22,545 nucleotides of DNA from a virus. Where the stretch lies: the IMG/VR virus record IMGVR_UViG_3300018049_000162, positions 1 through 22,545 of that record; one strand, given 5' to 3'. Below, piece by piece: positions 1 to 21,694 of this stretch. The position numbers and the translations under genes were made by a program. Every line of letters begins with the position of its first letter. Within the stretch, counting starts at the first letter, position 1. Under the pieces are notes generated by a model. The model ran no database searches. It was not told the origin of the DNA and was given only the letters and a program-made list of their open reading frames with translations.

Positions 1-3000
1 AGTTCAATTCTTATAACTTTGTAACCTGCGTTATCAAGCCAGCTCTTGTTTGGATATACATTAACTTCTTCTGGGTTGTCAACAACAATACCTTCCGGAG
101 ATGCTTTAACACGTAATGGTTCAATAGAGTCCGAAACAGAAACATATCTTGCAGGTAAGTCAAAATCACTTACTACAGAAGCAGAGTTGTCAATAGATTC
201 ATAAGAGCTTAAATATTCTCTAATTTTTGTTCTATAAGGTTTAACCTCTTTAATGTATTCTTCATAACTCGGAAGGTTATCATTTTGGAAGTTTACTTTT
301 TGCTCTAGATTTCCGACATTGTGTTTTGCTTTTAGGAAGCTAGTCTTAAATGCCCAATCTACATAATTTTGTTCTGCAAATACATAACGCAAACTTGCAA
401 AGAATAAGTTGTTGTACTCTAATAATAAATCGTCAATAAAGATATTATTCTTAATTGTGTTTAGAATAATTCTAGTTTCTGTTGACGGCAAACTATCGAA
501 CGTTAATACGTCATAACTAGTTGTGTCAAAACCAACTAGTGCTGCTGTCACATCGTATAGAGTTGGACGAATTTGAATTGTTCCGTTTTGTCTACCAATT
601 GTTTTATAGTTAACACTATAATCAACGCCAGTTTGTGCATCAATTTTTTCCAGGAGCAACCAACCGCCTGTTCCAACATTTTGAATTTTAATAATGTTAC
701 CAATAGTATCTTCTATAGTTGTTAGGTTATATGAAAAATCAATAACAAAGTCTATTTTTGTAAACGAATTATAACCTTCTGCATACCAATCAATGTATTC
801 CCAATACAAGTTTACATCGTAAGCCTGGCTTTCAACTAGAATCCATTCTTTTGCAACAGTATCACGTTCATACAAAGACCATTTACCATTTAGTGTAGTA
901 TCATTTTTAACCAAAACAGTATATCTTCTAACTGTTAATCTTGTAGAACTATTGTAATTGCTTCCTTCGTTTTCAACAATTACTTCAATTACTCTGCCTT
1001 GGGCATCAATAACTGTTTCAATTTCTGCATCACTGCCAATGCCAAATACTGAAACTGTAGGAGCCTGCAAATAACCTCTACCTGGATTAGTTATTTCAAC
1101 ACGTACAATTTTACCATCTTCGATAACAGGAGTTAATACTGCTTGTTCTGCTTTTGCAACACCAACAAACTGTAAGTCTATTAGAGAATCAACACTTCTG
1201 TCCCAACGTCTGCTTTGTTCAGTTGGTTCTGGCTGTTGTTCTGTTAATGGCGTAATATCTTTATCGTCAGCAATTAAGTTTTTAGCTAATACACTGTTAA
1301 TTCTAGTAACTGTTTGTTTTAATGCTTCTTCTCTATTTACAAACCAACCCTGCCTTGGTCTATTTAAAATACCGTATTTTTCTTTAACACTTAATTCAGG
1401 AGCAGGAACTTGACGGTCTTGTTCATCATGACCAACTAAACTGTCAAACCACTTGCGTTGAATATCTCTTTTTGGAATACTTGTTTCCAATCCTTCTGTT
1501 AAAATTTGATATTCGTTATGAATATTGGTGTCTTGGTTGTCAATAGTCCAATATTGTATACTTAATACAATATCTTGATTTCTTACAAGACCTTCACAGT
1601 TGTGTACTGCAAATTGATCATTTCCAATTAAACTAATAAACTTATATCCTTCAGCAGCAGGATTTTCAATTAACTTTGCAACATCACGTGCAGTTACAGT
1701 TCTTCCTTCTACAGGAGGAAGCGTTGTTTTATTTCCTACCCAATAATAGTAGTAAGTTTTAAATACACCAACTGCTTCGTTATATTCACGTTTGACAACA
1801 TATGCATTGTCGCTATCTTTTGTTGTTCCTGTAATACCTTTGGCTAAACCTTCTGCTGTTCCGCTTGTTTCGTCCCATTCGCTAGGCAATAGATCTGACT
1901 TAACCCATTCGTAAACATCAATAGTGTTAATTTCAGAAAATGCAGCGTTCCAGTGGTTTGCACTAAAAATTACATCAGACTGGTATGGATTTTTAAACTT
2001 AGCATTTGTTAAATTCCACCATAGCTGGCCAACTTGTGCAGATCCCCAACTATTAGTAGGATCTGTGTTAGGTAATATACCAGTAGTATATGTTGCAGGA
2101 TCATAATAAGTTTTATATGTTAGTTCTTGTTCTGCAGGACCTGCAATCTTTCCTTGTAATACATCAATATAGTCAATGTATGTAACAATTTCGTTTGCAC
2201 TCTTATCATAAAGCATTGCACGTTTAATTTTACTTACATCAACTGTGTCCTTAGACTCTCTCAATGCATTCCATACACTTGTATTTTCTTTGATTCTATA
2301 ATCAACTACTACACCTTCTTTTGTTGCAGTGTCTAAAATTGGCAAGCCTACATAAACGTGGTTTGATTTCAATAATAAGTTTTCGCCAAAGAATTTAACA
2401 TTAGGGACATCATAGTCAATTGTTTCTGCATAAATCAATGTTTCGTCAAATTTTTCATAAATTCTAACTGTTCCGGAATCTTTACTAAGTGCCTTAAAGT
2501 CAGTCATTCTATTATCAAACGTTGTTTGCGGAGTAGTATTTCCTACACTATCTCCATCAAATGTAGTTGTAACAAACGAATCTCCGTTACGAGAACCTAC
2601 AACTAGTCTATCTCCATCAAAGTCTACACTCCAGCCAAATAGTTCTGTTTTTTCTTTTGATGGACTATACAAAGATTGTGACGGAAGGAAAGTGCCACTT
2701 TCTTGTTTATAAACATAAACCTTACCTTGATCTAATTGCTCTGTGTCATCATACGGAGCACCTACTGCAATAAGATGTCCGTCATTGCTAATTGCAATAT
2801 TGCTACCATAATTTGTGTTTTTATCCGGAGCATTAATTGTTTGATATTTGTAGAATGATTCGTTTACATTTCTGTATATTTCAACTGTGTTTGTTTTGTC
2901 GCCTTCATATTCTGTAGTTAACGCAAGTACTTCTCCGTTTTTACTAACATCAAATGATTTTGCAAACTGTAGTAATTGATCGGCATCAACCACTGCTGCT

Positions 3001-6000
3001 TGATCTCCTACAATATTTCCTGTAGTATTTGGCAAATAACCTAAATAATCAGAAATATTTCCGGCTTCAACTAGTTCCCAATCGCTTGCTGTAAATACGC
3101 TAGGACCTGTTGTTGTGATTGCTTTATACAAATTTTGATTGTAGAATACTAATTCGTCTGCAAAGTATACAGTATCGCCGTCATACGGTCCTCTATACGC
3201 CTTGTTTCTTGACGATTCCCAACCATAAGTTGTTCCGTCAAATTCACCATTTTTATAAATGTAAAGTTTACCGTAGTTAGTAATTTCATTATTACCAGCA
3301 GCTTTAACAAACAATTTATCATTGCCATTAAAGCGAGAAATCTTAATATCAGAACCTAATCTAGCGTTAGCAAGTCTATCAGGTACAATAAATGAGTTAA
3401 TATTAACAAACGCACCAATACCTCTGCGCTCATAAACACTAAACATACCTTCATTAGTTTTATCTGTCGCAGGAACAGATCCTGACGCTGTCGCAGGAAC
3501 ATTATAAATAATATCCCAATCATTATTGTCTATAGAAGGTCTATTTGGTTCACGTGGAATACCTAATACTGTTTCTTCTCTGTAGAACCAATATTCACCA
3601 GTTGTAATAGTATCTTCTCTTGTAGCAACATCGTCGTCAACATCTTGTATTGGAATTACATCGCTATTGTCAATAACAATAAACTTACCGATGTTATCAG
3701 GAGCATATTCAAAACTTCTACCAAACATTTGACCAAAAACACGTGAACCTGAAATTGGATCGTAGATAACATCTCCCGAACCATCTGATAAGAATTCAAT
3801 TTCTCTGTTTTCGTTAAAGTCAGAACCTAGTGCCCAGGTTCCAGTAACACCTTTAACAAAAATTCTAGCATTGTTTGTATCGTATTTTTGATAGAATACA
3901 ATTTCAGCAGTACCTAAATTTGTTACATCTCGTACTGTAAGACCTACTTTAGGCTCTAGAGTATTACCTGCAAATTGTTTTGTAAGTCTAATATCAATAT
4001 ATCCGTCCCATACATCGTACACTGTATGCTGAGTATTGATTTGTCCTGGGGATAGTCCAATAGTAGCTAAGTCTCTGTCGCCTAGTTCTCCTGTTAAGAA
4101 CGGAGGCATCGTGTTATAGAAAATATCTAATGTTGGATTATTTTCATCACCCGGTGCAATAATTTGAGGAACAAGTGTATCAGTTAAAGGCTTAGGTGCT
4201 TTAAGCACATAAAGCGACGACTCAAAGTCTCCAATAACATCTAATGGTCCTGGGCTACCTCTATAACTTAGAGTAATAAGTTTGTTATATTCAGTATCTC
4301 TACTGTTTACAACACTATTAGGAAAATCTAAGTTATTGTAGTAGAAACGGTTTTGATTTGACCCTGTTGTAGGAGTCACGTCTACAAATACTAAGCCTCT
4401 ACCCAAGTCGCTGTTGATATCATCAACTACTTGATAAGCACTAGTGTTAATTCTCCAATAGCCGCCCCAATAATCATCAGCATTTGCTTGAGTATCATTA
4501 GGTGCAACAGTTAAATATTCTCCTACAAATTCACCAATGTCTGTTGTTAAAGAACCTACTGTACCAAATGTACCGTTTTGTGCTTTAATATAAATTGTTG
4601 CTTTTGCGCCAACATTAAATGTATAAGCAACTGTACCAAATCCTGTAAGTGTTTCAACTAATTGTCCTACTAACGGAATAGTATTAGAGTTTTCAACATA
4701 AAGTATACTGTCAATTTTTTCAACAATAGTGTGTTCGTCTGTTAAAACTACATCATTTAACTCTGGAATGTCTCCATCAAAAGGTAATCTAGATATAGGT
4801 GTTACACTAGTTTGGTTAGCATAAGTTAGATTGTTCCATTTTAATTTTACAATATCTCCAATACCAGAACCTTCATACATATCTTTTGGTGCTTTAATAA
4901 TAAAGTGATCTGTAAAGAAGTCAGATTGTACTTCTGATGACGAGAACGGATAATCGCCTGTAAGTATTACAGGTTTAATATCATCGTCCTCTTCTGTTTG
5001 TAGCAAGTCAGTCATAATTTGCGGCACAGATTCAAAACTACCAAACGGAATTTGTAATACAGCGCCATCAATTTCTTTATTTGCTTGCCATAAATTATCT
5101 TTGTATTCTACGATGTCAAGTGCATTATAATTAGTTTCGTCTACATACGAATCTTTGTATGTACTTTTTACATTAGATGCTTTTGGAGATCCAACAATCA
5201 AATATCTACCATCTGCTGAAACTGCAATGCTGCTACCAAATGCCTGGCCGCTATCTGCAATATTGTTAGGCGGCTCAACAATTTGGTTAAGTTGGAAAGA
5301 TCCTGCACTACCTGCTCTAACATAAACAAAAACTTTTCCATCGCCATTGTCAGGCGCACCTACACATAGTAGCGTATTGTTGTCACTAACTGCAAGAGCA
5401 TATCCATAATTGTGATCTTCACCTGATTCTGAATTCTCAATTACTTGATGCTGATTAAAGCCAGGAGTGTTTTCTAAAACTTTCCATCGACCGTTTGCAT
5501 CTTCATCAATCCATATTCTGCTAATACCTTGTTTGTAAGTCTGAACTAGTTCACTTGCTTCTTCATAACCAGCAACTCTAACAGGAACAAACTTAGAAAT
5601 AATAGGATTAGTAACTGTTGCCGACTCGTCGATTTCTGTGTTATCAATAGTAACAATATTGTTAAGCACTTTAGTAATCTTTGTAAAGATTGCAACATCT
5701 ACACCTTCTGCATTGCGATATTCAACTCCAATTACTCTACCTTCTACAAGTTTTTTTGGAATTGTAGAAAATTGTAATTGTCTAGTATCACCATCTAATA
5801 ATACTGCTTCAAGTGTAAGATCTTCTTGTAAGAAGGAATAAACATTCCAAGTTTGATTTACGTTTCCAACCCATACAATATCTTTATGATTAATTGTTGC
5901 ATAATCAATTTCCATAATAGCATCATAATCAGCTACTACAAATTGTACATCTTGTTCATTTACAAACCCGCTGTTTCTTGTATACGTATCTTTAACATAT

Positions 6001-9000
6001 GTTGTAGGGAACGGTGCGTGATCATACCCTTCAGGACGTAAGAAAACTTCAAACGGTTTAATTCTGTAGATTAGGTCTGTTTCTTCGCCGGTTGTTGAAT
6101 TTACTAATTGAACGCTTTGTGGTTGTAGTTTAAATTTATCTTCATCTAAAATAAACTCTACTTCATCAAATCCTTCCGATGCGCCATACTGTCCTAGTTT
6201 AATTGCCCATTCTTCATAAAATTCTAAACTATCTTTATCTGCACTTCCTAATACATCAAAAAGTTTTGTAAGAGCATTTCTAGTGCCTTTATCTTGAATC
6301 ATACCTTGATAGAATTTGTACTGACTAACATCGTCATTAATAATGTTTGCTAGATAATCTCTATTTTGATATCCAATTAAGTGCTGTGCATATTTTTGCT
6401 GTTCAGTATCAAAGTTATCGGTATCTAAATCATAAAAATCTGCAAACTGATTTACCTTATATTCCCAGTTTGGAATAAGTTTCATATCTGGTGCTTCGTT
6501 TAGAAGAGACCATTTATTTGCAACAAATGTTTGAGTTCCCGAAACTTTGTTAATAGCACTATAATAAAATTCTTTGTATTTTACAATTTCGCCAATTGCG
6601 TAATCTTGCCAAGGTTCCCATTCGCTAACTGTTGCATTATCAAAAATAAAGCCCGGAATATTTAAACTACCGTCCCAATCGCCTGTTCTATAACCTAAAA
6701 CTTTAATTCGTTGTTGTCTATAACCAGGTTCTTGATCGTAAATAATATCGCCAAATACTGTTTTGTTGTCAATAATAACAACGTGCTCTTTTTGAACTAA
6801 AGAAAGTCTTACTGCAAAAATTCCATCTTCTGTAGCTTTAGGTCTTACTACAAATTCTTTAGGTTCTTCCCTAGTTAAAGATACATTCTGCGGATTTAAC
6901 TTTTTACCATCAGCTTTTAATAAACTGTATCCATAAAATGTATCATAAATGTCGTCAACAATAGCATACTCTGATCTAAATTTAATTTGGAATGCACCAG
7001 GGCTTAATGTAATAACACTTCCTGCTCCCCAGTTTTGTGTAGTCCAAAACATAAACTCTTTAGTGCTAGTTTCCCAATTAGAAACAAACTCGCTGTCTTT
7101 AGAATAGAAGTCAAATACAAAGCCTGCTTTTTCAAGCCAGTAATTGTATCCTAGTAAAAAGTCTACAACATCTTGTACTGTTTTATACACAGTTCCATAA
7201 GCTACACGCTCTGCATTGTTTTTAAATGCTTTTCTAAAATATGCTTCGCGGCCACCTTCAGTTGGAATTACAGGAAGTTTAGCAAACTTAGATTCGTCAA
7301 ATTGATCGTTACTTGTATGTGATTCTGTAACTCTGTAAAATGTACCTTGGAAGTCTACAATACTGCCTGATACATAAGTCTTACCAGAATTCCATTCAAC
7401 AAAACTTGCACTGATGCCGCCAATTCTTATTAGAGGATCATTTTGTAAAGGAATTGCTTTATTAATAGTAAAATATGGATTTACGTTATCATAACCTCTT
7501 ACAATAAAACCATAAGGTTGTTTTTCAATAATAACACCGCTGTAAGTAATATTTTTTACAGGAGCACTTGTATTCAATGAAATTTTATAGTTTTCTTCTG
7601 GTACAAAAACATTGCCTTTATTAGTAGGAGTTCTACTATCAAGAATTAATTTAAATTTATCTTTGTTAGTATAGCCGCCAACTTTAAAACCTATTTGATT
7701 ATTAATTCTTGAAATATTATCTTTATATTCTTCATATGGAGTTTCTACATTTGATGCAAGATAATCAAAAATGTAATTGATTAACCCCGATGTGTATACT
7801 CTTGTTTCTTGCGTTGAAGTATTTGGAAATACTATATTTTTTAATGTAATTGTAGTATTGTTTTCAACATAATTAATTTGACTCGATGTTCCACGAATCT
7901 GTCTTTTTCTATCAAAAATTGAAGCAAACGTTCTTGCAGGCTGATTTAATACCAAAGAAGTAATTAATGAAAACGGATATTCTGAACTTCTACGCCACGC
8001 TGTTTCTACAGGTCCCTGATCGCCAAATGCAAAATTATCATTTAAATCAGTTGTATTATATGTTTTAATAAAACTGCTTAAAATAGGACTAATTAAATTT
8101 CCATCTTCGTCAACTGGAATATGCGTTGTGATAAGTTTACGTGCATATTTTTTGTTAATTACTCCCGAAGTTCCAGGCTCTCTTATCATACCTGCTTCGA
8201 TATCTTCCCACATTAAGAAGTTATTACTAGTATAAGGAGCTTCGCCGTATTGCTCATCCCACCAGCTAGGTTTAATAGTAAAGCCTAACATTTCCCAAGG
8301 ATGTGTGTGTGGACGATCGGTGTCGTAAGCATACTTGTAAACTGCTCTCCAAAAACCGTAAACTGGGTTTTCATCAATGTCTACCATACCAGTATGATTA
8401 AATGTAAAAGAGTTTTCTCTTACAAATGAGTTATTTAAAGTATAATCATCGTCAACCAACTGAAGCCATTGTACAAAATCACTTATCATACTATCATTAA
8501 TCTGCTTTGCAGATAATCCTGTTTCTCTTGAAAATCCAGGAACATAGTCATAAATGTCAAACAATTTTGGATCGTAATTTATTTTGATGTTGTTAAATAT
8601 TCTGCGTTCTAGTTCTAATAACAAGTCATCTCTGTAATCGCCGTATGCAATAGTAATGCTTCCGTCGTGTCCTTGAATAACTGTTTGAGTTTCTAAATAA
8701 GTATCATCCTCCATTATTTGAGGTACAAACTTAGGATACAAACCTAATTTAGTAGGTGTAGGCGGAACAAAAGATCCGTTAGTAGTTTCATATTCATAAA
8801 TGCTTAGAATATCGCCTTGTGCTTTAGTAGCAGTTACAATAACAAACCCTTGATCATTAAATGTATAGTCTACTCCGTATACTAGTTGTACGCCGTTTAA
8901 GTAAACTTGAACGGCAGTACTACTAAGAGTATTAAGGTCAAACACCCTGTTTAATGCAAAGAAGTTATTATCAGGATCAAAAATTTCTGTTTCGCTTTTA

Positions 9001-11813
9001 ATTGCACCTGTAAACGGAACCATATCACTAAAATAATATGGCATTGTGCTAACTTTGTCTTTTGTTAATTCATTTAGAATTAAATCAACGTGCTGTTTTA
9101 CAGGACCACTAAATCCTAATTTAGCTGCAATTTGTAAAAATGATCTTTTAAACTTTCCGTATTCACGTCTTGCAAATTTAAGTGACTTAATAACGTTTGC
9201 ATCTTTGTTAACAATATGATAGACCGGAATATTAAGAGGTGACGAATGTTTTACAATACGCTTACCAAATTGCGAGACAGGTCCTAAATCTCTAAGATTG
9301 CTTGGACCCGGAAACACTCCGTCAAACGTATTAAGCTCTTCTACAATCGTGCTAACGTGGTCGTTAACTTCACCTAGTGTAAACTCGTTAATATTTTTGT
9401 TTAACGGATTTCTTTCTAAGTTACTTGCAATTTCATATTTTCCGTTTTCTGTTTTTAATGCTTTTGACTTAGTTTTTAAAATAATATTATCACCAATGCT
9501 TAACGGATTTACAAAAGTAACTGTAACATTTTCGTTATTGTCTTGTCCTAGTGTATAATCTTTATCTTTAAATTTTAATGCATTGTTAACATATACTCTT
9601 AACCATAAGTCATCTAATAACGCACTTCTTTCATATACATCAACAGTATAAAAAGTTCGTGTATTATCGTTTACATATTGTCTAATTACAGGTTGTGTAC
9701 TTAATTCTCTTGCTGTTGTCCAGCCATTAAGTACTTGCCATTTATCTCTAGCAGAATATTTTCTTATATAACCTTTACTAATATAATCTGTTTGAGGTAA
9801 TTCGTTATTAATTGCAAACGTACTAACATCTTGTAAGAAGTTAGATTCAAAAACAATATCACCTACGTTTTCGATGCTTCTATAAGTTAGCGGAAATTTT
9901 AACTCAGTGTCATTTGATCCGTTTCCTTGTTTGTAAGAAAAGATTTTTGTGCCTCTAAAAGTTGCTGATTCGTAAACAGATTCATCGGAAAAACTATACC
10001 CGTTATCGTCAAACGCATCAAATAGCGGAGGCTGGTTTAATTCAGTTTTTTGCTGTGCAGTTTTCCAAGAAGATCCGTTAAACCATAATACGCTTCCTTG
10101 GAATTCTGTACCTTGCTTACAAAGTAAAACTTCGTTTAATAATGGTGTTGTATCATCTGTTTCTTTTAAAGTAATTTGTCTTGTATTGCGGAAATTAATA
10201 AATTCTACTTCAAATATTTTACCTGTAACTAATGGATCAGGGTCTGCTGTAAACAGTACTCTCATTCCGTTAGTTAAGTCAACATCGTCAATATTGTAAC
10301 CTTGGGCGCCTTCAACTGTGCTAAAAACATCACTAGTAAAGTTATCTACAAGGTCAACACTTTTCTTAATGACTGTACCGTAATTAAATAACTTTAGATT
10401 AGCTTCAAATTCAATAATAGGTCTAGTAGCACGAGCTGTTTGATCAAGGTCTAATGGCTGATTATTAATCTCAGCACTAGCTTCTATCACAGATTTATGG
10501 AACCATCTATTATATTTTGACCATAAATTTCCGTCTTGACTTGCTCTATTAATTGTAATATAATCTTTATTAACAGGATAACCTATTGCTTCTGAATAAG
10601 GAAGTTCGTCAAATCCTTCTGTATCAAAATCTACACGCAAATCTGATGTATAAGAACTAGGAACGTTTAAGTCTACTTCAGACATAAGAACAATACTATC
10701 TCCTACACCTTCTACATACCAAAAACCTTCTCCGTATTTTTCAGGAGTTACTTTACCTACAAACTCTACTTTCATACCGTTTGATAATGCAATACCAGCT
10801 TCGCTTGTGTATGTTTTTGTGCCTAAAATTTCTGCTTCTACGTCAATTGATGTAGCTTCAACTAGATCAAGAACATTAATTGTTCCACTAGCAAACAAAT
10901 CGTTATCCGACATATAGTAAATTAAGTCAGGTGTTTCTGCTGTTAGTTCTACCTCAACTGTACCAGATTCAACACTTTGTTGACTTACTGAATTTCTTAA
11001 ATTAAATGTTGTATCTAACTCCCAGAAATTTAAATCTAATTCTTCTGTAGCAAAATGATCTTTAATACAAAGGAAAATTCCGCCTTCGTAATTTACTTTG
11101 TCGCCTTCAAGATAAGTTACATTTGGTCTAAATCTAGGTGCTGTATCTTTTCTAGTTCTAAATGAAATAGGATTGCCCGGAGCATCAATTTCAAAAATAT
11201 ATTTGATACCTCTAAATAAAGTTAGTACAGGGTTTTGTGTTTGGCCGTCTGGTGTAAAAACATAACCATAATTTTCGCCGTTATCAACTGCTCTAACTTT
11301 AATTGTTTTTTCAACGTTGTCTTTTTCGCCTGCAATTTGTACAGGACGAGGCCCATTAGGCAACCAATAATATTCACGGAAATTAGTAAATTTATCCCAG
11401 TCAATATTTGGGTTCCAAGAATAATACTCTTGTCTATTAAGTAAGCTATGATCAGAGACGCTTGACCCTAGTGTAGTAAGCTGATTAATATAATCATTGT
11501 AATCTGCATAAAATCTAACATTGTTTAAATCGTCTTTAATTACAACAGCAGGTTCAAACTGATAATCTTCTCTAGATTTAGAAACATCGCCTACATAAAA
11601 ATCATTTTTAGTATAACCTTTAGCTTCTTTTTGTCCAAAATATCCATTTAATTTTTCAGCAACACCGGGTTGTATTAACTGATCAATCGTACTAGAAAGA
11701 AATTTATTGTTTACCTGAGTTCTAAAATATCTAGGTAAATGATCTGAACTTTTTCTTCTGTTTGGTTTGCCAGCCGGCAAACTAGTAGGTTTCTGATCGT
11801 CGTCGTATGCCAT
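1..11813 (-). CDS. Giant virion structural protein, probable baseplate wedge/peripheral component (partial, 3' end outside window)
   Basis: One uninterrupted frame of at least 3,937 codons that runs off the left edge without a stop. The ATG overlaps the gp6 stop (TAATG), with GGAGG at 11826-11830 as ribosome binding site. The N-terminus reads MAYDDDQKPTSLPAGKPNRR. The protein is rich in Asp, Asn, Tyr and Trp, with no signal peptide or membrane segment noticed. Visible modules by approximate residue: CBM5/12-like W-Y-G-V-Y segments at 229-267, 1466-1513, 1730-1772, 2217-2255 and 2870-2914; an aromatic block HPWEMLGFTIKPSWWDEQYG near 1170-1190; FG-GAP-like blade motifs at 2130-2210, 2812-2858 and 2947-3175; a GRGYLQAPTVSV beta-sandwich-like repeat at 3570-3620; and a segment ending EVKPYRTKIREYLSSYE near 3860-3875. 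It follows gp6, where T4 has gp7 (about 1,030 aa) and gp8, so a wedge role is inferred from position only. Giant proteins of this type occur in marine T4-like phages as far as I recall. A tail-fibre or adhesin role is the main alternative. Confidence 0.93.
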   Translation of the reverse strand, partial: MAYDDDQKPTSLPAGKPNRRKSSDHLPRYFRTQVNNKFLSSTIDQLIQPGVAEKLNGYFGQKEAKGYTKNDFYVGDVSKSREDYQFEPAVVIKDDLNNVRFYADYNDYINQLTTLGSSVSDHSLLNRQEYYSWNPNIDWDKFTNFREYYWLPNGPRPVQIAGEKDNVEKTIKVRAVDNGENYGYVFTPDGQTQNPVLTLFRGIKYIFEIDAPGNPISFRTRKDTAPRFRPNVTYLEGDKVNYEGGIFLCIKDHFATEELDLNFWELDTTFNLRNSVSQQSVESGTVEVELTAETPDLIYYMSDNDLFASGTINVLDLVEATSIDVEAEILGTKTYTSEAGIALSNGMKVEFVGKVTPEKYGEGFWYVEGVGDSIVLMSEVDLNVPSSYTSDLRVDFDTEGFDELPYSEAIGYPVNKDYITINRASQDGNLWSKYNRWFHKSVIEASAEINNQPLDLDQTARATRPIIEFEANLKLFNYGTVIKKSVDLVDNFTSDVFSTVEGAQGYNIDDVDLTNGMRVLFTADPDPLVTGKIFEVEFINFRNTRQITLKETDDTTPLLNEVLLCKQGTEFQGSVLWFNGSSWKTAQQKTELNQPPLFDAFDDNGYSFSDESVYESATFRGTKIFSYKQGNGSNDTELKFPLTYRSIENVGDIVFESNFLQDVSTFAINNELPQTDYISKGYIRKYSARDKWQVLNGWTTARELSTQPVIRQYVNDNTRTFYTVDVYERSALLDDLWLRVYVNNALKFKDKDYTLGQDNNENVTVTFVNPLSIGDNIILKTKSKALKTENGKYEIASNLERNPLNKNINEFTLGEVNDHVSTIVEELNTFDGVFPGPSNLRDLGPVSQFGKRIVKHSSPLNIPVYHIVNKDANVIKSLKFARREYGKFKRSFLQIAAKLGFSGPVKQHVDLILNELTKDKVSTMPYYFSDMVPFTGAIKSETEIFDPDNNFFALNRVFDLNTLSSTAVQVYLNGVQLVYGVDYTFNDQGFVIVTATKAQGDILSIYEYETTNGSFVPPTPTKLGLYPKFVPQIMEDDTYLETQTVIQGHDGSITIAYGDYRDDLLLELERRIFNNIKINYDPKLFDIYDYVPGFSRETGLSAKQINDSMISDFVQWLQLVDDDYTLNNSFVRENSFTFNHTGMVDIDENPVYGFWRAVYKYAYDTDRPHTHPWEMLGFTIKPSWWDEQYGEAPYTSNNFLMWEDIEAGMIREPGTSGVINKKYARKLITTHIPVDEDGNLISPILSSFIKTYNTTDLNDNFAFGDQGPVETAWRRSSEYPFSLITSLVLNQPARTFASIFDRKRQIRGTSSQINYVENNTTITLKNIVFPNTSTQETRVYTSGLINYIFDYLASNVETPYEEYKDNISRINNQIGFKVGGYTNKDKFKLILDSRTPTNKGNVFVPEENYKISLNTSAPVKNITYSGVIIEKQPYGFIVRGYDNVNPYFTINKAIPLQNDPLIRIGGISASFVEWNSGKTYVSGSIVDFQGTFYRVTESHTSNDQFDESKFAKLPVIPTEGGREAYFRKAFKNNAERVAYGTVYKTVQDVVDFLLGYNYWLEKAGFVFDFYSKDSEFVSNWETSTKEFMFWTTQNWGAGSVITLSPGAFQIKFRSEYAIVDDIYDTFYGYSLLKADGKKLNPQNVSLTREEPKEFVVRPKATEDGIFAVRLSLVQKEHVVIIDNKTVFGDIIYDQEPGYRQQRIKVLGYRTGDWDGSLNIPGFIFDNATVSEWEPWQDYAIGEIVKYKEFYYSAINKVSGTQTFVANKWSLLNEAPDMKLIPNWEYKVNQFADFYDLDTDNFDTEQQKYAQHLIGYQNRDYLANIINDDVSQYKFYQGMIQDKGTRNALTKLFDVLGSADKDSLEFYEEWAIKLGQYGASEGFDEVEFILDEDKFKLQPQSVQLVNSTTGEETDLIYRIKPFEVFLRPEGYDHAPFPTTYVKDTYTRNSGFVNEQDVQFVVADYDAIMEIDYATINHKDIVWVGNVNQTWNVYSFLQEDLTLEAVLLDGDTRQLQFSTIPKKLVEGRVIGVEYRNAEGVDVAIFTKITKVLNNIVTIDNTEIDESATVTNPIISKFVPVRVAGYEEASELVQTYKQGISRIWIDEDANGRWKVLENTPGFNQHQVIENSESGEDHNYGYALAVSDNNTLLCVGAPDNGDGKVFVYVRAGSAGSFQLNQIVEPPNNIADSGQAFGSSIAVSADGRYLIVGSPKASNVKSTYKDSYVDETNYNALDIVEYKDNLWQANKEIDGAVLQIPFGSFESVPQIMTDLLQTEEDDDIKPVILTGDYPFSSSEVQSDFFTDHFIIKAPKDMYEGSGIGDIVKLKWNNLTYANQTSVTPISRLPFDGDIPELNDVVLTDEHTIVEKIDSILYVENSNTIPLVGQLVETLTGFGTVAYTFNVGAKATIYIKAQNGTFGTVGSLTTDIGEFVGEYLTVAPNDTQANADDYWGGYWRINTSAYQVVDDINSDLGRGLVFVDVTPTTGSNQNRFYYNNLDFPNSVVNSRDTEYNKLITLSYRGSPGPLDVIGDFESSLYVLKAPKPLTDTLVPQIIAPGDENNPTLDIFYNTMPPFLTGELGDRDLATIGLSPGQINTQHTVYDVWDGYIDIRLTKQFAGNTLEPKVGLTVRDVTNLGTAEIVFYQKYDTNNARIFVKGVTGTWALGSDFNENREIEFLSDGSGDVIYDPISGSRVFGQMFGRSFEYAPDNIGKFIVIDNSDVIPIQDVDDDVATREDTITTGEYWFYREETVLGIPREPNRPSIDNNDWDIIYNVPATASGSVPATDKTNEGMFSVYERRGIGAFVNINSFIVPDRLANARLGSDIKISRFNGNDKLFVKAAGNNEITNYGKLYIYKNGEFDGTTYGWESSRNKAYRGPYDGDTVYFADELVFYNQNLYKAITTTGPSVFTASDWELVEAGNISDYLGYLPNTTGNIVGDQAAVVDADQLLQFAKSFDVSKNGEVLALTTEYEGDKTNTVEIYRNVNESFYKYQTINAPDKNTNYGSNIAISNDGHLIAVGAPYDDTEQLDQGKVYVYKQESGTFLPSQSLYSPSKEKTELFGWSVDFDGDRLVVGSRNGDSFVTTTFDGDSVGNTTPQTTFDNRMTDFKALSKDSGTVRIYEKFDETLIYAETIDYDVPNVKFFGENLLLKSNHVYVGLPILDTATKEGVVVDYRIKENTSVWNALRESKDTVDVSKIKRAMLYDKSANEIVTYIDYIDVLQGKIAGPAEQELTYKTYYDPATYTTGILPNTDPTNSWGSAQVGQLWWNLTNAKFKNPYQSDVIFSANHWNAAFSEINTIDVYEWVKSDLLPSEWDETSGTAEGLAKGITGTTKDSDNAYVVKREYNEAVGVFKTYYYYWVGNKTTLPPVEGRTVTARDVAKLIENPAAEGYKFISLIGNDQFAVHNCEGLVRNQDIVLSIQYWTIDNQDTNIHNEYQILTEGLETSIPKRDIQRKWFDSLVGHDEQDRQVPAPELSVKEKYGILNRPRQGWFVNREEALKQTVTRINSVLAKNLIADDKDITPLTEQQPEPTEQSRRWDRSVDSLIDLQFVGVAKAEQAVLTPVIEDGKIVRVEITNPGRGYLQAPTVSVFGIGSDAEIETVIDAQGRVIEVIVENEGSNYNSSTRLTVRRYTVLVKNDTTLNGKWSLYERDTVAKEWILVESQAYDVNLYWEYIDWYAEGYNSFTKIDFVIDFSYNLTTIEDTIGNIIKIQNVGTGGWLLLEKIDAQTGVDYSVNYKTIGRQNGTIQIRPTLYDVTAALVGFDTTSYDVLTFDSLPSTETRIILNTIKNNIFIDDLLLEYNNLFFASLRYVFAEQNYVDWAFKTSFLKAKHNVGNLEQKVNFQNDNLPSYEEYIKEVKPYRTKIREYLSSYESIDNSASVVSDFDLPARYVSVSDSIEPLRVKASPEGIVVDNPEEVNVYPNKSWLDNAGYKVIRIE

Positions 11814-14800
11814 TAGTAGCTAAGGCCTCCACTTATTGAACTGCTGCTAAAAGAACCACTTTGAATTCCTGTAGTCGAATTTGTAATACTTGTAACTACA
11901 GCGCCAGATGCTTTTAATCTGCTTGCTGTAATTGCATCAATTATTTCAACGTTTTCAACTGTTGCTCCGCTAATAAAAATTTCATCTGATTCTGATTTTA
12001 TTTCTTGCAATGAACCATATGCTTGATCTTCTTGATCCGGAACAATTACAAACGTTACTAAGGTTGGCGAAAGTTGACTCATTACATAGTTAGACAACTC
12101 TGAGAAGTAAAACTTTTCACCAAAGTCCCAATTATCTAGTGCAAAAAATTTATTAATTGCACTAATTACATTAGATTTAATTTCGTTATCGTTTAACACC
12201 AAGTCTGGGTTTTTAACTATTTTAAATGTTGCTTGCAAGTCTTCTTTTGCCTTGTTTCCAAAAAGTACTTTGTACTTAACTGGATGATAGATAATTTCGT
12301 CACTTAGTGACTTAATTTTATTAAGCTCGCTACCATAACTAATAAACAAAGAATCACTACTTGGCGGTAAAGGCTTATTAGCTACAACACCATCAAGATA
12401 CTGTCTAAATGATGTGTCATACCCTCGTGTTAATATGTAAGTATCAACAATATTGCTTGCACTAGGATCAATTCTACTATCTTGATCAGCTGCGTGTACA
12501 TACTGGAATTTTAATCCATCTCTACCAACGCTTGCTTTATAATCTGTAGTAATTGCAAGTGTTGTAGTAGTTGCGTTAAATACTTCAAAAATATCTTCTT
12601 CTAAATAGTAAAGAATATCACCATCTTCATATGTGCTTAATGGCTGTCTTTCTGATACAGAATTTAAAATAAGTTGTGTAGGATCTCTAAATACTGATTC
12701 TTTACTTACATACTTGTAATCTTCAACGCCGTCAGTTGTTGTACTTTTTTGTAAAAATACTAACTTGTTCAAAGGTGATGTTTCTTCGTCAACAATATCA
12801 TCAAAGATTTCTGGATTATCTACAACACCGTCATCATCGTCATCAAAGAAACTTACTTGTATTTTTCTAGAATCTACATAGCCTTCTGCATCCCTGTATT
12901 CTTCTACAATTTCCCATAAGTAATTGATATTAAACGGTTCTACAGAATCCGGTTTAGTGTTAATATTTAAAATATTGATTTTGTCTTTAACAATTTTACC
13001 TGTTTTGTTATTAAAAATTTTATCACTGCTATCATAATAGAATCTAATATCTTTATCACTTTCAAATACATAACGCATAGCACGATGTGTAATAGTATAC
13101 TTTTCGCCGTCAGTATTAAATTTTAAAAGCCAACTTGCATCAAGTTGTTGATTTGTAGTATCACCGGTTTTACCTGTACTAAAATCACTATTTGCAGCAA
13201 GGTTATTTTCAGTAATAAGTCTCCATTCTCCGTCATTTCTTGAAAATCTCAAACCAAATGTTCTATAAGAAAATATTTGTGCTGTAATTTGTGCTTTAAC
13301 ATCGTCTGTTAGTGCTGACGGAAGTGCTGTTCTAATTTCAACAAGTCTTGATCCCGTAGGGATACTATCATTAAACACAATTGGTCCAGAATTATCATCT
13401 TGTATTTCTGTACCATCTCTAACAACACTAATAACTTTTACCCATTTGTATGCTGTGCCACCTCTAAAATCAGGCTCACCTAATTCTAATTTTCCTTTTA
13501 AGAAATGATATCCAGTAGGCGGAACAAATTTTAATAATGAATTAGGTTTTACAAATTTCATATTCGACCCAGTAAATGTATCAACTTTAATTAATACGTC
13601 TGCTGAATTAGTTAATCTACCTGTAAAATTGTTTGTGTCCTCAGTAATCTGTGTCCACGTGGCGCCTAAATCTTCAACTAATAATTTAGGAAATTGATCA
13701 TAGTAATAATTTCTTACTTTAATACTTGACAGAATAGGTTCAATAGTATTAACAATTTGTCCTTCAATATCAGTTAATGTTTCAAAATCAAAACCTGTTT
13801 TAACTGTTAGATAATTTTTATAAACTGCACCGTCTGTTCCAAATAAATTTGTAGTAGAATATTTTCCAGTTGCATCAACAAGATCAAAGTTTCTACTAAT
13901 ACCGCTAGATGTTCTGTTTACACTTTTTGTTTTTACAATTTCTTGACTAACAGCTAAAGGTCCAATTTGATAATCTTCTGCCGTTACCATACGATTTTGT
14001 GTATAATACAAAGAAGGTGCATTTTTCTTAATACTTGCGTTAGTCTCAGAAACTGTTGAGTTATCAACAGTTGCTTTTAATTCAAGTGTAAGTGTGACAG
14101 TTTCTGCTGTACCTGCTCTTGATACATACGGAATTCTTACAGCAATTCCTCTTAAATTATCCGGAGTAACGATTAAGCGTTGATTTTTACTTGTACGGTA
14201 GTAAACACGGAAATTGCCTTGTGGTAAATTACCAAACGTGCCGTCTGCAAAAATTAAACTAATTCTATCTTCAATACGTGTTAGTACACTGTAAATATTA
14301 CGGATACCTTTGTTTAAACTATTGTAGATAACATTGTTACCTTCAACTGCTTCTACTTTAGACCAAAGTTCTTGTTCATTGCCTAAACTATCTAGCTTGT
14401 AAAGCCAAACGTCTGAGTTATTTACATTACGTGCATCAACTGCAACAACTTGGTTTGTTGACGGATTTGTAACATTAAATTGCCCTTGATCAATAGTACC
14501 TTGTCTAAAATGACAGAAGAACCCTGTGTTAGAACTAGCAACGCCACGGCCGTCATCTCTGTACAAAAACGCAAAGTTATTGCCAGGGAATGGTGCTTCT
14601 TCTTCAATATCTGTATCAGTAATATCTGTCGATACAACTTCAAAAGGAACTGATTTCCCGTCAACTGTTTTACTAAAACTATAAACAGGAACTTCTGTAT
14701 TAGTACTATTCATTCTGTACTGTTCTGTAGGAATGCCGTTAATTGTTTCTTTTTTAACAGGACGTCCAAATGTTCCATTTACTGGTAACGATGCATTCAT

Positions 14801-15277
14801 AACACGAATAAACTGTTCAAACCAGTCTGGGTTAGCTGGGTCATTCCACTGAATTGTTTGTTCTTCTAGATTTACACCGTTACTATCAATGATTTCTTCT
14901 GTAGTGCTAATTGCTTCAATTTTTAGTAAGCCGTTTGCTGCTTGGTTACGTTTAGGATTATAGGAAAGCAATCTTGCTAAACGTAATACACTTTCACGGC
15001 GTTCTGCTAGTTCTAAGAAGTTTTCACGAGCATTTAGATCAATACGGAAAGCAATGTTTTGACCTAAGAAAGCAATCATATCAATAAGTGCTAGGTATTC
15101 ACTTGATTCAATGTAGTCGTTGAAGTCCTCAGGATAGTTTTCTCTAAGGTAATTAATCATTGTTCTGCGCAAATTATCAAAATCGTACGATTTAAAATCT
15201 GCATTACGGAATGATTGGTAAACTCGTTTCCAATCCTCCGCTAGTAATAATCTGTTTTGTCTATCTGTAGATGACAT
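11813..15277 (-). CDS. 6: Baseplate wedge protein gp6
   Basis: 1,154 aa, much longer than T4 gp6 (about 660 aa). In T4, gp6 dimers form the inner ring of the baseplate wedges and change conformation when the sheath contracts. Family signs: the N-terminal segment around YLALIDMIAFLGQNIAFRID (residues 61-80) followed by LARLLSYNPKRNQAANG (100-116), and QNRMVTAEDY near residue 430, typical of gp6/J-like baseplate proteins. The C-terminal part (about 1000-1135) is a mixed alpha/beta domain followed by a Ser/Gly-rich tail ending GGLSY. Residues 812-823 spell a 12-residue EF-hand-type calcium loop (five Asp, Gly, Val-Val, Asp, Asn, Pro, Glu), unexpected for this family. The start has AGGA at 15287-15290, 9 nt upstream, and a late-promoter-like AATAAATA at 15301-15308. 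The stop overlaps the giant gene's ATG. Confidence 0.93.
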   Translation of the reverse strand: MSSTDRQNRLLLAEDWKRVYQSFRNADFKSYDFDNLRRTMINYLRENYPEDFNDYIESSEYLALIDMIAFLGQNIAFRIDLNARENFLELAERRESVLRLARLLSYNPKRNQAANGLLKIEAISTTEEIIDSNGVNLEEQTIQWNDPANPDWFEQFIRVMNASLPVNGTFGRPVKKETINGIPTEQYRMNSTNTEVPVYSFSKTVDGKSVPFEVVSTDITDTDIEEEAPFPGNNFAFLYRDDGRGVASSNTGFFCHFRQGTIDQGQFNVTNPSTNQVVAVDARNVNNSDVWLYKLDSLGNEQELWSKVEAVEGNNVIYNSLNKGIRNIYSVLTRIEDRISLIFADGTFGNLPQGNFRVYYRTSKNQRLIVTPDNLRGIAVRIPYVSRAGTAETVTLTLELKATVDNSTVSETNASIKKNAPSLYYTQNRMVTAEDYQIGPLAVSQEIVKTKSVNRTSSGISRNFDLVDATGKYSTTNLFGTDGAVYKNYLTVKTGFDFETLTDIEGQIVNTIEPILSSIKVRNYYYDQFPKLLVEDLGATWTQITEDTNNFTGRLTNSADVLIKVDTFTGSNMKFVKPNSLLKFVPPTGYHFLKGKLELGEPDFRGGTAYKWVKVISVVRDGTEIQDDNSGPIVFNDSIPTGSRLVEIRTALPSALTDDVKAQITAQIFSYRTFGLRFSRNDGEWRLITENNLAANSDFSTGKTGDTTNQQLDASWLLKFNTDGEKYTITHRAMRYVFESDKDIRFYYDSSDKIFNNKTGKIVKDKINILNINTKPDSVEPFNINYLWEIVEEYRDAEGYVDSRKIQVSFFDDDDDGVVDNPEIFDDIVDEETSPLNKLVFLQKSTTTDGVEDYKYVSKESVFRDPTQLILNSVSERQPLSTYEDGDILYYLEEDIFEVFNATTTTLAITTDYKASVGRDGLKFQYVHAADQDSRIDPSASNIVDTYILTRGYDTSFRQYLDGVVANKPLPPSSDSLFISYGSELNKIKSLSDEIIYHPVKYKVLFGNKAKEDLQATFKIVKNPDLVLNDNEIKSNVISAINKFFALDNWDFGEKFYFSELSNYVMSQLSPTLVTFVIVPDQEDQAYGSLQEIKSESDEIFISGATVENVEIIDAITASRLKASGAVVTSITNSTTGIQSGSFSSSSISGGLSY

Positions 15278-15334: not shown

Positions 15335-15781
15335 TTATGAAAGGAAGCCAGCATTTTCATCAAACCTTAAACGCATTGTTTCTGATATATTGTAAGGCAA
15401 ATAAGTTAGTGTACACTCGATCTGTATGCCGCTTTCGTATGTTGACACTGTAATGTTGTCAACGTTTGCTCTAGGATCAAAATTAACGGTTCTTGAGACA
15501 TTTTGAATGATAGCATCTCTAAGTTGATCTGTGAGAGGTTCAAACAAAATGTCCCAAATAATAGTACCAAATTCAGGATCGCTTAATTTTTCACCTTGAC
15601 GTATATGAAAATTGTTAATAATATCTTGTTTAATTAATTCAATATCGTATAACACCCAATCAGATGCATTAGGATTAACTGTACTAATACCTCTATAGGC
15701 CCTAGACTCGGGAACAACTTCTTGTTTCTTATTGCTAGGAACAACAATTTGTTTGTATATGTTTTTTTCTTGTGTACTCAT
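15335..15781 (-). CDS. 25: Baseplate wedge protein gp25 (lysozyme-like fold)
   Basis: 148 aa, slightly longer than T4 gp25 (132 aa). Homologues are found in nearly all contractile injection systems (phage gpW/gp25 family, TssE of type VI secretion); gp25 helps join the wedges to the sheath and hub. Family signs: GEKLSDPEFGTIIWDILFEP (63-82), matching the DPEFG region of T4 gp25, and FDPRANVDNI (101-110), matching the conserved E/D-P-R core; the rest of the C-terminal half is beta-strand-like. The N-terminal 40 residues are polar and probably extended. The gene starts 8 nt after gp5 ends and has only a weak AGG upstream, so translation may depend on ribosomes finishing gp5. A 57-bp spacer separates it from gp6. 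Confidence 0.95.
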   Translation of the reverse strand: MSTQEKNIYKQIVVPSNKKQEVVPESRAYRGISTVNPNASDWVLYDIELIKQDIINNFHIRQGEKLSDPEFGTIIWDILFEPLTDQLRDAIIQNVSRTVNFDPRANVDNITVSTYESGIQIECTLTYLPYNISETMRLRFDENAGFLS

Positions 15782-15789
15782 AACTATAT

Positions 15790-17745
15790 TTAACCTACAT
15801 TAAAATTCACTAAACTACGTTTGCCGTCAACTTCTTGAACTCTTAGTTTAGAACCGTCTGACATTGTAACTGTTTCGTTTGCTTTATATTTTCCGGCTCC
15901 TACATCTGCAACAATTTGCCTATCTGCAGGATTTCCATATTGGCCCGTATTAGTTGATTGAGGTACTGCTGTTGGTAGTTTTCCTTTAGCAAGAGTTGTT
16001 CTTAAATTAAGTAAATCGTTTGCGGCTTGTGTTACACCGCCAACTATTGCGCCGCCAACTTTCTTAATACTACCTAAAACTCCTGCACCAGCAATGTCGT
16101 CAATAGTTTTAATAAGATTTTGTGCTTGTGCAAACGAGTTTACTCCTGCTTCAACTACAGAATTAATAAATCCAGACACAGATGCTGGACTCATATTTGC
16201 TTTAACTTCTGCTGCTTTTGCTGTTACTTTAGGATCAACTTTTGCTGCGCCATTAGCTGCTGGAGGTGTTTCTGTTTCTGCAGGTTGTGATGCTGGTTTT
16301 TCTCTTACATCTCTTTTTGTATTCTTTTTAAATGTATCCGGGGTTGCTTGTTTTGTTGCTTTAGGTTCTTCTTCCTCTTTACTATCTGTTTTTTCAGGAA
16401 CAAATGCAGCAGGATCTAAATTTTCGTGGCCGTCCCACGGTTCGTGTTGCGGAACTCTAGAAGGTATATTTGCTTCTGTTGCAGCCGTTGCTGTTGCAGC
16501 AGCTGGTCCGTTCATATGAATATTTTTTGCTGTTTCTACGTGATTTCCTGTAGCACTAATATTACTAGATCCGCCTACTGTAATCTTTCCGTCAGCACCT
16601 GCTTTAATTTCCCAATTAGATGCAGCTGACTGAAATATACTTGTTCCGGCATTCATATGAATATCGCGTCCTGCATTAAAGTTAATATCCCTATCAGCAG
16701 TAAAGTTCAAATCATTTTCAGTATGTACACTAATTGAGTCTTGTGCATAGATGTCTATTTTGCCGTTACTTGTTAATTCAATCCAAGTAGTACCTCTAGC
16801 ATTTCCAATATAAATTAAATCTTCTGTATTGTGTAATAAAATTTGATGCCCTGTACGGGTTCTTAAACGCACAAGCTCATTATGTGGTAATGTAGGATCT
16901 CCGCCTTTTTCACCGCCTTCAACATTTACATAAACTGATGGACCTTGGTTTTCGCCACCCGCTGGTGTTTTTCTTACAAGAGTTGAATCACCGTCGTCAA
17001 AAACTAAACTACTACCACCTAATCTATTTTGAGGTACAGGAGTTTGTGCGAAGTTTTCACCATAATTTACTCTTGGAGCACCAGGACGTCTGTCTGCAGG
17101 TCCTGGACTGCTAAATCCCATAACAGCACTAGGTAATTCTCTTCTAGCACTTGAAGTTGTTGTTCCTCTAATCTCATCTTCAATAAGACCTTGTGTTGTT
17201 AAAATGCTAATAGCATCTTCGTTTGCCGGCTTAATAAATTGTGTACTATCTCTTCCCTTGCCATCTTCAATTTTTTTATTATATTCTACAACAGGTAATT
17301 TTTTCGCTTTGTCTTTATCATTAAAAGTAGTTGACACCCAAGGATCAGGAGTCATAATATTTGTGTGATCTTCAGGAATACATCCTAACCAATATCCGTC
17401 TCCACCTTCAGCAAATATAACAAGAACTTTTGAATTAATATCAGGCGGTACTCCCCACCATCCGTAACTACGCTGACTGTTTTGTGCGCCAGCATTTTTG
17501 CTAGTACCTTCTAAAGATGTTGTACCGTGGAAAGGGCTTAGGTATCGTACTGGAATAATTTGCCCTGGAGCGTTTGTAGACTGTCCTGCATTACTAGAAG
17601 TTAGTATTTCAACTTCTAAATTTCCCATATAAGTACTATCTAAATGATTTCTAACAATAGCAACACACGGTTGAGAAGGAAATTTTTCTTTAACACCGGC
17701 ATTGGTAGTGCGTTCAACTTCACTTTTATTAACCTTATCTACCAT
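15790..17745 (-). CDS. 5: Baseplate hub/central spike protein gp5, lacking a recognisable lysozyme domain
   Basis: 651 aa. In T4, gp5 is the trimeric needle of the baseplate: OB-fold, lysozyme, then triple beta-helix. Here residues 25-140 form the OB-fold region (VAIVRNHLDSTYMGNLEVEI, then YGWWGVPPDINSKVLVIFAEGGDGYWLG). Residues 285-412 are a VgrG/gp5-like beta-helix start (LRTRTGHQILLHNTEDLIYI) followed by short-period strands such as DRDINFNAGRDIHMNAG. VPQHEPWDGHENLDP at 431-445 is a motif I recall from marine gp5 proteins. The 140-285 linker is Pro/Gly/Ser-rich with no lysozyme motif. After residue 445 comes a charged low-complexity stretch, a Gly/Ala-rich helical region (510-590), and a compact C-terminal piece (600-651). 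The ATG overlaps the stop of the preceding gene (TAATG), with GGAGG at 17755-17759. Confidence 0.9.
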   Translation of the reverse strand: MVDKVNKSEVERTTNAGVKEKFPSQPCVAIVRNHLDSTYMGNLEVEILTSSNAGQSTNAPGQIIPVRYLSPFHGTTSLEGTSKNAGAQNSQRSYGWWGVPPDINSKVLVIFAEGGDGYWLGCIPEDHTNIMTPDPWVSTTFNDKDKAKKLPVVEYNKKIEDGKGRDSTQFIKPANEDAISILTTQGLIEDEIRGTTTSSARRELPSAVMGFSSPGPADRRPGAPRVNYGENFAQTPVPQNRLGGSSLVFDDGDSTLVRKTPAGGENQGPSVYVNVEGGEKGGDPTLPHNELVRLRTRTGHQILLHNTEDLIYIGNARGTTWIELTSNGKIDIYAQDSISVHTENDLNFTADRDINFNAGRDIHMNAGTSIFQSAASNWEIKAGADGKITVGGSSNISATGNHVETAKNIHMNGPAAATATAATEANIPSRVPQHEPWDGHENLDPAAFVPEKTDSKEEEEPKATKQATPDTFKKNTKRDVREKPASQPAETETPPAANGAAKVDPKVTAKAAEVKANMSPASVSGFINSVVEAGVNSFAQAQNLIKTIDDIAGAGVLGSIKKVGGAIVGGVTQAANDLLNLRTTLAKGKLPTAVPQSTNTGQYGNPADRQIVADVGAGKYKANETVTMSDGSKLRVQEVDGKRSLVNFNVG

Positions 17746-20621: not shown

Positions 20622-20924
20622 TTAGCCTCCTAGCTGTGCTGTAATGTTTCTCTCTTTTGGTAGATAAATTTGTGTGCCTGCAACAAAATCATATACAGGA
20701 TCTTTAAGTACATTCATATTGCGTTGAGCAAAAACCCACCAATATTTTCTATCTCCGTATAAATCATATGCTAATAAGTCCGGACGATAAGTGTATTGCG
20801 GTTCAATTTCATATACAATATCATCATTTTCTGACGGGACAGGTCTAATATTTAGAATGCCTAAATATTGACCGTTTACTGCTCTTGTGTCACTGTATTG
20901 ACTTTTATCATCATAATATGCCAT
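20622..20924 (-). CDS. 53: Baseplate wedge protein gp53 (LysM-like)
   Basis: 100 aa, about half of T4 gp53 (196 aa), which bridges neighbouring wedges during baseplate assembly. The core YRPDLLAYDLYGDRKYWWVF (46-65), followed by AQRNMNVLKDPVYDFVAGTQ and IYLPK, is the characteristic gp53 pattern. The stretch around DFVAGTQIYLP resembles the end of a LysM module, as reported for this family. The start overlaps the gp48 stop by one base (TAATG) and has no strong ribosome binding site, so translational coupling to gp48 is likely. Its last codons (for QLGG) supply the GGAGG sequence used by the next gene. Confidence 0.9.
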   Translation of the reverse strand: MAYYDDKSQYSDTRAVNGQYLGILNIRPVPSENDDIVYEIEPQYTYRPDLLAYDLYGDRKYWWVFAQRNMNVLKDPVYDFVAGTQIYLPKERNITAQLGG

Positions 20925-21694
20925 TATAAGTATCCATCATTACTGCCAATGTATCCGCCACTAACAAATCTATCAAGACTAAATCTATTAACTTTATCTC
21001 TGCTGTATTGTGGCATTAGTGCAACAGATATTTCTGATCTAGTAGGAGCGTATGATCCATTAAATCCAATACCTGCCGGAATGTAGTCAACATCTGAAGG
21101 TAATGTTACGTTAAAGTTTTGAACAACTACAGGAACATTATTAAAAACATAATCTCCGTAACCGTTAAGTTTTACTACTGGCGGTGGTGAACCTTTATTT
21201 GAACTTTCACCGTATGCCATTTTAGTAACTGATTTTAAGAAGTGTACTGCTGCAATCCAGTACTCTGCTTCTTTTGAATTTTCTACTGTAAACTCGCCTG
21301 TGATTGTAAATTGATCCACTTGCGAACTTGTATAAATGTGAAAGGGGTAATTACTATGTGTAGGCTGTAATGCATTATAGTTTGCACTATGGGTAATAAA
21401 TACTTGTGGCGTATAAGGGAATACCATAGAATTTTGTGTTTCTTTTAAAGGCGCCAATAATGTACTACTAGAAAACGCACCACCCGGAGGTAGAGATATC
21501 CTAACACGCCAATCTGCATTAGTACCTGTATCCCAGGTAGCTGCCGAGAACGACCCGTCATTAGTTGGATTGGCACCTGGCAATAAATTAAATGTTCTTA
21601 ACACGCGGCCAAAATTTGTATCTGAAATCTCTTCGATAGCCTTTTGCTTAACGTTGTTAACAATTCGATTGCCGATATTTCCTAAAAAGCTCAT
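20924..21694 (-). CDS. 48: Baseplate tail tube cap protein gp48 (gp48/gp54 family)
   Basis: 256 aa, shorter than T4 gp48 (364 aa). gp48 and gp54 sit on the hub and nucleate tail-tube polymerisation. The N-terminus has a short amphipathic helix (MSFLGNIGNRIVNNVKQKAI). The central part includes MVFPYTPQVFITHSANYNAL (90-109) and VDQFTITGEFTVENSKEAEY (126-145), then a helix WIAAVHFLKSVTKMAYG and a strand run PPVVKLNGYGDYVFNNVPVV; the alternating beta pattern with one helix fits a tail-tube-like fold. It is the first gene of the minus-strand operon, with AGGAG at 21702-21706 placed 7 nt before the ATG and a late-promoter-like CTAAATA just upstream. gp54 is the main alternative label, since the two T4 paralogues are hard to separate and only one is seen here. 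Confidence 0.82.
   Translation of the reverse strand: MSFLGNIGNRIVNNVKQKAIEEISDTNFGRVLRTFNLLPGANPTNDGSFSAATWDTGTNADWRVRISLPPGGAFSSSTLLAPLKETQNSMVFPYTPQVFITHSANYNALQPTHSNYPFHIYTSSQVDQFTITGEFTVENSKEAEYWIAAVHFLKSVTKMAYGESSNKGSPPPVVKLNGYGDYVFNNVPVVVQNFNVTLPSDVDYIPAGIGFNGSYAPTRSEISVALMPQYSRDKVNRFSLDRFVSGGYIGSNDGYL

Follow-up and report, generated by a model that had tools for sequence, protein, structure and literature searches.

Half of the viral DNA analysed here (the window, 22,545 bases, which is the entire IMG/VR record) is taken up by one gene lying where phage T4 encodes the baseplate wedge protein gp7, which raises the question of what role so large a protein would play at that position. 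The giant is probably the gp7 counterpart in the baseplate of a RaK2-like (phrog_10938) myophage, of which the window encodes the N-terminal ~3,940 of some 5,150 residues. It most likely supplies the gp7-type chain of the wedge because of its position, a short motif of the gp7 core and the lack of any other candidate.

A truncated giant gene and its family

The giant gene lies on the minus strand (3..11813) and stays open for 3,937 codons from its ATG with no stop up to the contig end, so the sequence-only reading was right in describing a single uninterrupted minus-strand gene that fills half of the window and is open at its edge. The gene is truncated because the record is the window itself. 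A search for relatives in viral contigs yielded 365 stretches, of which 80 were kept. The nearest complete orthologue (contig L086) measures 5,149 amino acids (aa), and most complete orthologues from the closest marine metagenomic contigs have 4,914-5,658 aa, indicating that ~1,200 C-terminal residues are absent from the giant in the window. Relative to L086, the gene differs at 534, 322 and 1,503 first, second and third codon positions across 3,937 codons; 1,194 codons carry synonymous changes only and 624 change the amino acid. This third-position-dominated divergence identifies the giant as a translated gene under purifying selection along the whole 3,937 codons.

The idea that the frame is chimeric or falsely open, an artefact of assembly or annotation, draws on the fact that the gene comes from a single contig whose end cuts it. 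Its probability is nevertheless negligible: the third-position bias extends over the full length, the architecture is repeated in many independent contigs and complete isolate genomes, and a second contig (L006, IMGVR_UViG_3300018428_000482) is 100% identical to the giant over residues 1-945. L006 is the only identical contig found and overlaps the N-terminal end of the giant; from this identity, it would come from the same phage, or from one very close to it, in a separate assembly.

The giant was said to lack a clear family name, which turned out to be incorrect. A PHROG scan matched it to phrog_10938 (E=0, 1158.6 bits, 5 stretches), the only PHROG reported for it at E<=0.01; judged by this match, it is a further member of an established family and ordinary in kind. 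At E<=1e-5, 57 phage records contain orthologues, and most of those with a name are jumbo phages. They include RaK2 ORF070w (3,326 aa), PA5oct gp355 (3,857 aa), Atu_ph07 gp180 (4,449 aa), a Phosso protein (4,555 aa), CBB_236 and phAPEC6 gp245. The giant resembles these proteins in being encoded directly after gp6 and in its homology over most of the length outside an insert of ~1,200 residues. It differs in that its phage is uncultured and lies close to contigs from metagenomes, and its close relatives exceed the isolate proteins (3,326-4,555 aa) in length, having an FG-GAP insert and more CBM5/12-like modules.

Several orthologues have been found in virions. CBB_236, whose gene adjoins that of the gp6 protein CBB_237, was detected with 21 peptides by mass spectrometry (PMC5259590), and phAPEC6 gp245 (381.88 kDa), adjoining the baseplate wedge protein gp244, with 17 unique peptides (PMC7247149). 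The sequence record of PA5oct gp355 likewise bears an ESI-MS/MS note. By extension, the giant would be incorporated into the particle of the window phage.

The baseplate gene block

The genes upstream of the giant lie on the same strand. A gp6 homologue (11813..15277, 1,154 aa; phrog_10646 and phrog_219) is directly adjacent, followed by a gp25 homologue (15335..15781; PHROG scan and PF04965), a gp5-like hub/spike protein (15790..17745; phrog_13211), the virion structural protein phrog_11190 (17745..20621; PHROG scan), a gp53 homologue (20622..20924; PHROG scan and PF11246) and a further virion structural protein, phrog_12050 (20924..21694; PHROG scan). In transcriptional order, the operon comprises phrog_12050, gp53, phrog_11190, gp5-like, gp25, gp6 and the giant, preceded by a divergent gene for the late sigma factor gp55. 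On these profile matches, the block is a T4-type baseplate block. The gp5-like protein shows matches of the hub/spike type, with the lysozyme domain absent from the Pfam scan. PHROGs places phrog_10938, phrog_11190 and phrog_12050 (3-11813, 17745-20621 and 20924-21694) in the category 'head and packaging', which looks wrong for all three as members of a baseplate operon; on this synteny, phrog_10938 would be better classed with the baseplate.

The linkage between gp6 and the giant is strict. The gp6 gene lies immediately 5' of the giant in all 74 loci with enough upstream sequence (74/74), and in the window base 11813 is common to the giant ATG and the gp6 stop codon. The position after gp6 is that of gp7 in T4, phiM7, Cr30 and many cyanophages. 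Two gp6-type chains and one gp7-type chain make up the wedge heterotrimer, both in T4 and in type VI secretion, and it contains a trifurcation domain as well as a three-helix bundle (PMC6300606). T4 gp7 itself is a monomer present in six copies per tail (PMC3004832). Sullivan et al. 2010 remarked that the divergence of gp7 across T4-like phages was great enough to separate it into several clusters (PMC3037559).

On the 3' side, the next gene in 62 of 65 loci, as also in PA5oct, belongs to phrog_11259 (204 aa, motif KRNAIHYEN; examples are L099:16247-16861, L111, L118 and others). Three similar-looking fibre-like proteins are encoded after it in relatives. This arrangement allows for another reading, in which the giant is a baseplate-peripheral or adsorption protein that happens to follow gp6, while the role of gp7 falls to another small protein, for example phrog_11259 or one encoded elsewhere. 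Such a division of labour is the less probable explanation, though one to be taken seriously, and the invariant placement of the giant in the gp7 position is the first observation that speaks against it.

The gp7 core motif and the search for separate wedge genes

A gp7-core-like segment lies at residues ~1790-1865 of the giant (6219..6446, minus strand) and includes a KGT motif at residues 1842-1844 (6282-6290, minus strand). The core motif of gp7, FY..KG[T/I]..[AS]...LF..L, has its unique top profile-profile match at giant residues 1808-1858. There, the gp7-superfamily profile scored 31-34 with a first profile and 29-31 with a deeper, differently weighted one; the next-best place scored 13.7-19.7, the reversed profile 13-15 and six control proteins 10.5-15.3, and column shuffles reached maxima of 20.4 and 23.7 (54 shuffles each). 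The same segment was the top match for marine-only, cyanophage-only, isolate-only and T4-only subsets alike; taken alone, the comparison was insignificant for the T4-only subset (p 0.88) and for the isolate-only subset (p 0.1-0.2). The YL..I element upstream of it also aligns, and the FY of the motif is not strictly aligned in phrog_10938. The match spans only 23-51 columns, with an hhalign probability of 4-12% and p of about 0.002-0.012, and the comparison was not blind, the motif profile having been assembled after the motif was spotted by eye. The profile-profile comparison is thus suggestive of a gp7 core in the giant, not proof of one.

HMMER profiles of gp7 (phrog_964, and a profile termed A5 made from gp7 of T4, a vibriophage, a Caulobacter phage and a cyanophage) match the positive controls T4, ACG-2014h, phiM7 and Cr30 and find no match in the giant or in any phrog_10938 member. 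Comparing full-length profiles of the giant and T4 gp7 also returned nothing, the T4-only profile being too shallow. AlphaFold predicts helices in the core segment at low confidence (pLDDT < 50), which would be compatible with folding only in the presence of gp6, yet is no evidence for this; structure searches gave no confident match to a wedge protein. T4 gp7 (phrog_964, 1,032 aa) is like the giant in being encoded immediately after gp6 and in its KG[T/I] core motif, as picked up by profile-profile comparison, and differs in the absence of HMMER-level homology, in its length (the giant is at least 3.8 times longer) and in the location of the core, which is internal at residue 1842 in the giant and at 738 in T4. 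The missing HMMER-level match, the core segment that is not confidently folded and the many domains of surface-binding type in the giant are what a peripheral or adsorption protein has in its favour. Its weakness is that the core motif appears in the giant in every subset comparison and that a gp7 profile match occurs nowhere else in four complete genomes.

These genomes also bear on the observation that no separate gp7-like or gp8-like frame is seen. This holds for the window, where it means little as the window ends inside the giant, and complete relatives were tested instead. The complete genomes of RaK2, PA5oct, Atu_ph07 and Phosso gave no HMMER match to a separate gp7 and no full gp8 by profile, only repeat-driven partial matches, so at the profile-HMM level the observation extends to all four, and the separate gp7 or gp8 homologue that the sequence-only reading regarded as incompatible with its proposal was detected in none of them. 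Matches of Atu_ph07 and Phosso segments to gp8 (phrog_438) and to cyanophage wedge families were rejected, as they reflect a widespread GxGY..P repeat and not gp8 or gp7. Profile-profile comparison found no gp8 (phrog_977, phrog_438) either inside the giant or in the gene that follows it, and no gp8 similarity in phrog_11259. T4 gp7 has gp8 as a neighbour, whereas none was found in the relatives of the giant. A marginal match to T4 gp10 (p 0.005) was not used; it lies in a C-terminal region of L086 whose counterpart is absent from the window. The recommended comparison with wedge proteins gave a suggestive match for the gp7 core at 1808-1858, nothing for gp8 and no more than a marginal match for gp10. 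The proposal that one protein takes the place of gp7 and gp8 is supported for gp7 by position, motif and the lack of a separate gp7, and finds no match for a gp8 inside the giant.

Modular architecture and a possible surface-contact role

Residues 1-2000 and 3200-3900 of the giant are largely common to RaK2 and PA5oct, while residues ~2000-3200 form an insert that is mostly missing from both. Five CBM5/12-like modules are scattered along the chain (all coordinates are on the minus strand). Module 1 (residues 228-266, 11016..11132), module 4 (residues 2223-2263, 5025..5147) and module 5 (residues 2872-2915, 3069..3200) were recognized by a model built from the five giant segments themselves; module 3 (residues 1729-1771, 6501..6629) was found by structure search as well as by this model, and module 2 (residues 1471-1513, 7275..7403) by Pfam PF02839 and by a structural match to chitin-binding domains. 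The giant also contains FG-GAP-type repeats, of which repeats 1-2 occupy residues 2135-2212 (5178..5411) and repeats 3-7 residues 2818-3174 (2292..3362). Four of these were identified by a second model and three more by eye only (repeats 2, 6 and 7). A seven-bladed propeller split by an insert of ~600 residues is a reasonable inference from the repeat pattern. The Pfam scan backs the CBM5/12-like and FG-GAP-type parts through PF02839 and PF14312, and the description of the giant as a mosaic of repeats is borne out.

AlphaFold gave a good model for ~1015-1690 within residues 1000-2130. The part at ~1471-1515 adopts a predicted chitin-binding-type fold that matches a chitooligosaccharide deacetylase at 1.2 A over 45 residues, and chitin-binding domains are the only plausible relatives in a PDB sequence comparison of the giant. 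Structure prediction by segment followed by Foldseek, recommended as a check, returned no match at E<=0.001. VIA matches of a small beta domain at ~1994-2076 (Z 7.9, 2.2 A, 75 residues) are in a range reached by unrelated folds and were rejected. The CBM5/12-like and FG-GAP modules could be peripheral host-contact parts, and the claim that the giant adds such domains to the wedge holds as domain annotation.

The size of the giant, its CBM5/12-like and propeller-like modules and the fibre-like genes downstream might also suggest a protein that serves only as a long tail fibre, or as a scaffold for fibres, with no role in the wedge. This is improbable: tail-fibre families are absent from the PHROG and Pfam scans of the giant, its linkage to gp6 is strict, and the long tail fibres of RaK2 were assigned to gp526-gp534, encoded in a different gene cluster (PMC10253068). 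If the giant is a gp7 counterpart, two copies of gp6 would be joined by its short helical core at ~1790-1865, which contains the KGT motif, as in the (gp6)2-gp7 heterotrimer of T4, and the wedge periphery would be made up of the ~1,780 residues that precede the core and the >2,000 that follow it. There, the carbohydrate-binding-type modules and the propeller-like insert may touch the cell surface, and the periphery may anchor the three fibre-like proteins encoded downstream in relatives. Each particle would hold six copies of the giant, should its stoichiometry be that of T4. A bolder version, in which one chain of ~5,000 residues does the work of both gp7 and gp8 and its glycan-binding and propeller domains turn the wedge hub into a host-recognition surface, seems doubtful.

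The assignment of phrog_10938 as a gp7 counterpart is new as far as the literature was searched, and is moderately supported. It offers a testable function for a giant family annotated only as 'virion structural protein', and would make RaK2-like baseplates comparable with those of T4 and cyanophages. gp7 would then prove to be an elastic scaffold into which domains of surface-binding type have been inserted repeatedly.

A single giant in the gp7 position is not exceptional, contrary to the initial impression. Going by annotated coordinates, cyanophage genes after gp6 encode 7,124 aa in P-SSM7 (PSSM7_090), 6,817 aa in ACG-2014d (gp071), 4,314 aa in S-CAM7, 4,307 aa in P-TIM68 (gp086) and 3,533 aa in ACG-2014h. 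These giants (phrog_4406, phrog_2885) resemble that of the window in being single genes directly after gp6 with the core motif and similar small repeat cassettes. They differ in that the core lies at residues ~200-700 and that their homology to the window giant is confined to repeats and motif, the profiles of phrog_4406, phrog_2885 and phrog_701 having no match to it at E<=0.01. ACG-2014h, the complete cyanophage genome searched, also retains a full gp8. In ACG-2014h, the gene named 'gp7 baseplate wedge initiator' (L205:20980-29439, 2,820 aa) lacks the gp7 core, and its name is possibly a mis-annotation among cyanophages; the core is carried by the gene directly after gp6 (3,533 aa), which is labelled 'virion structural protein'.
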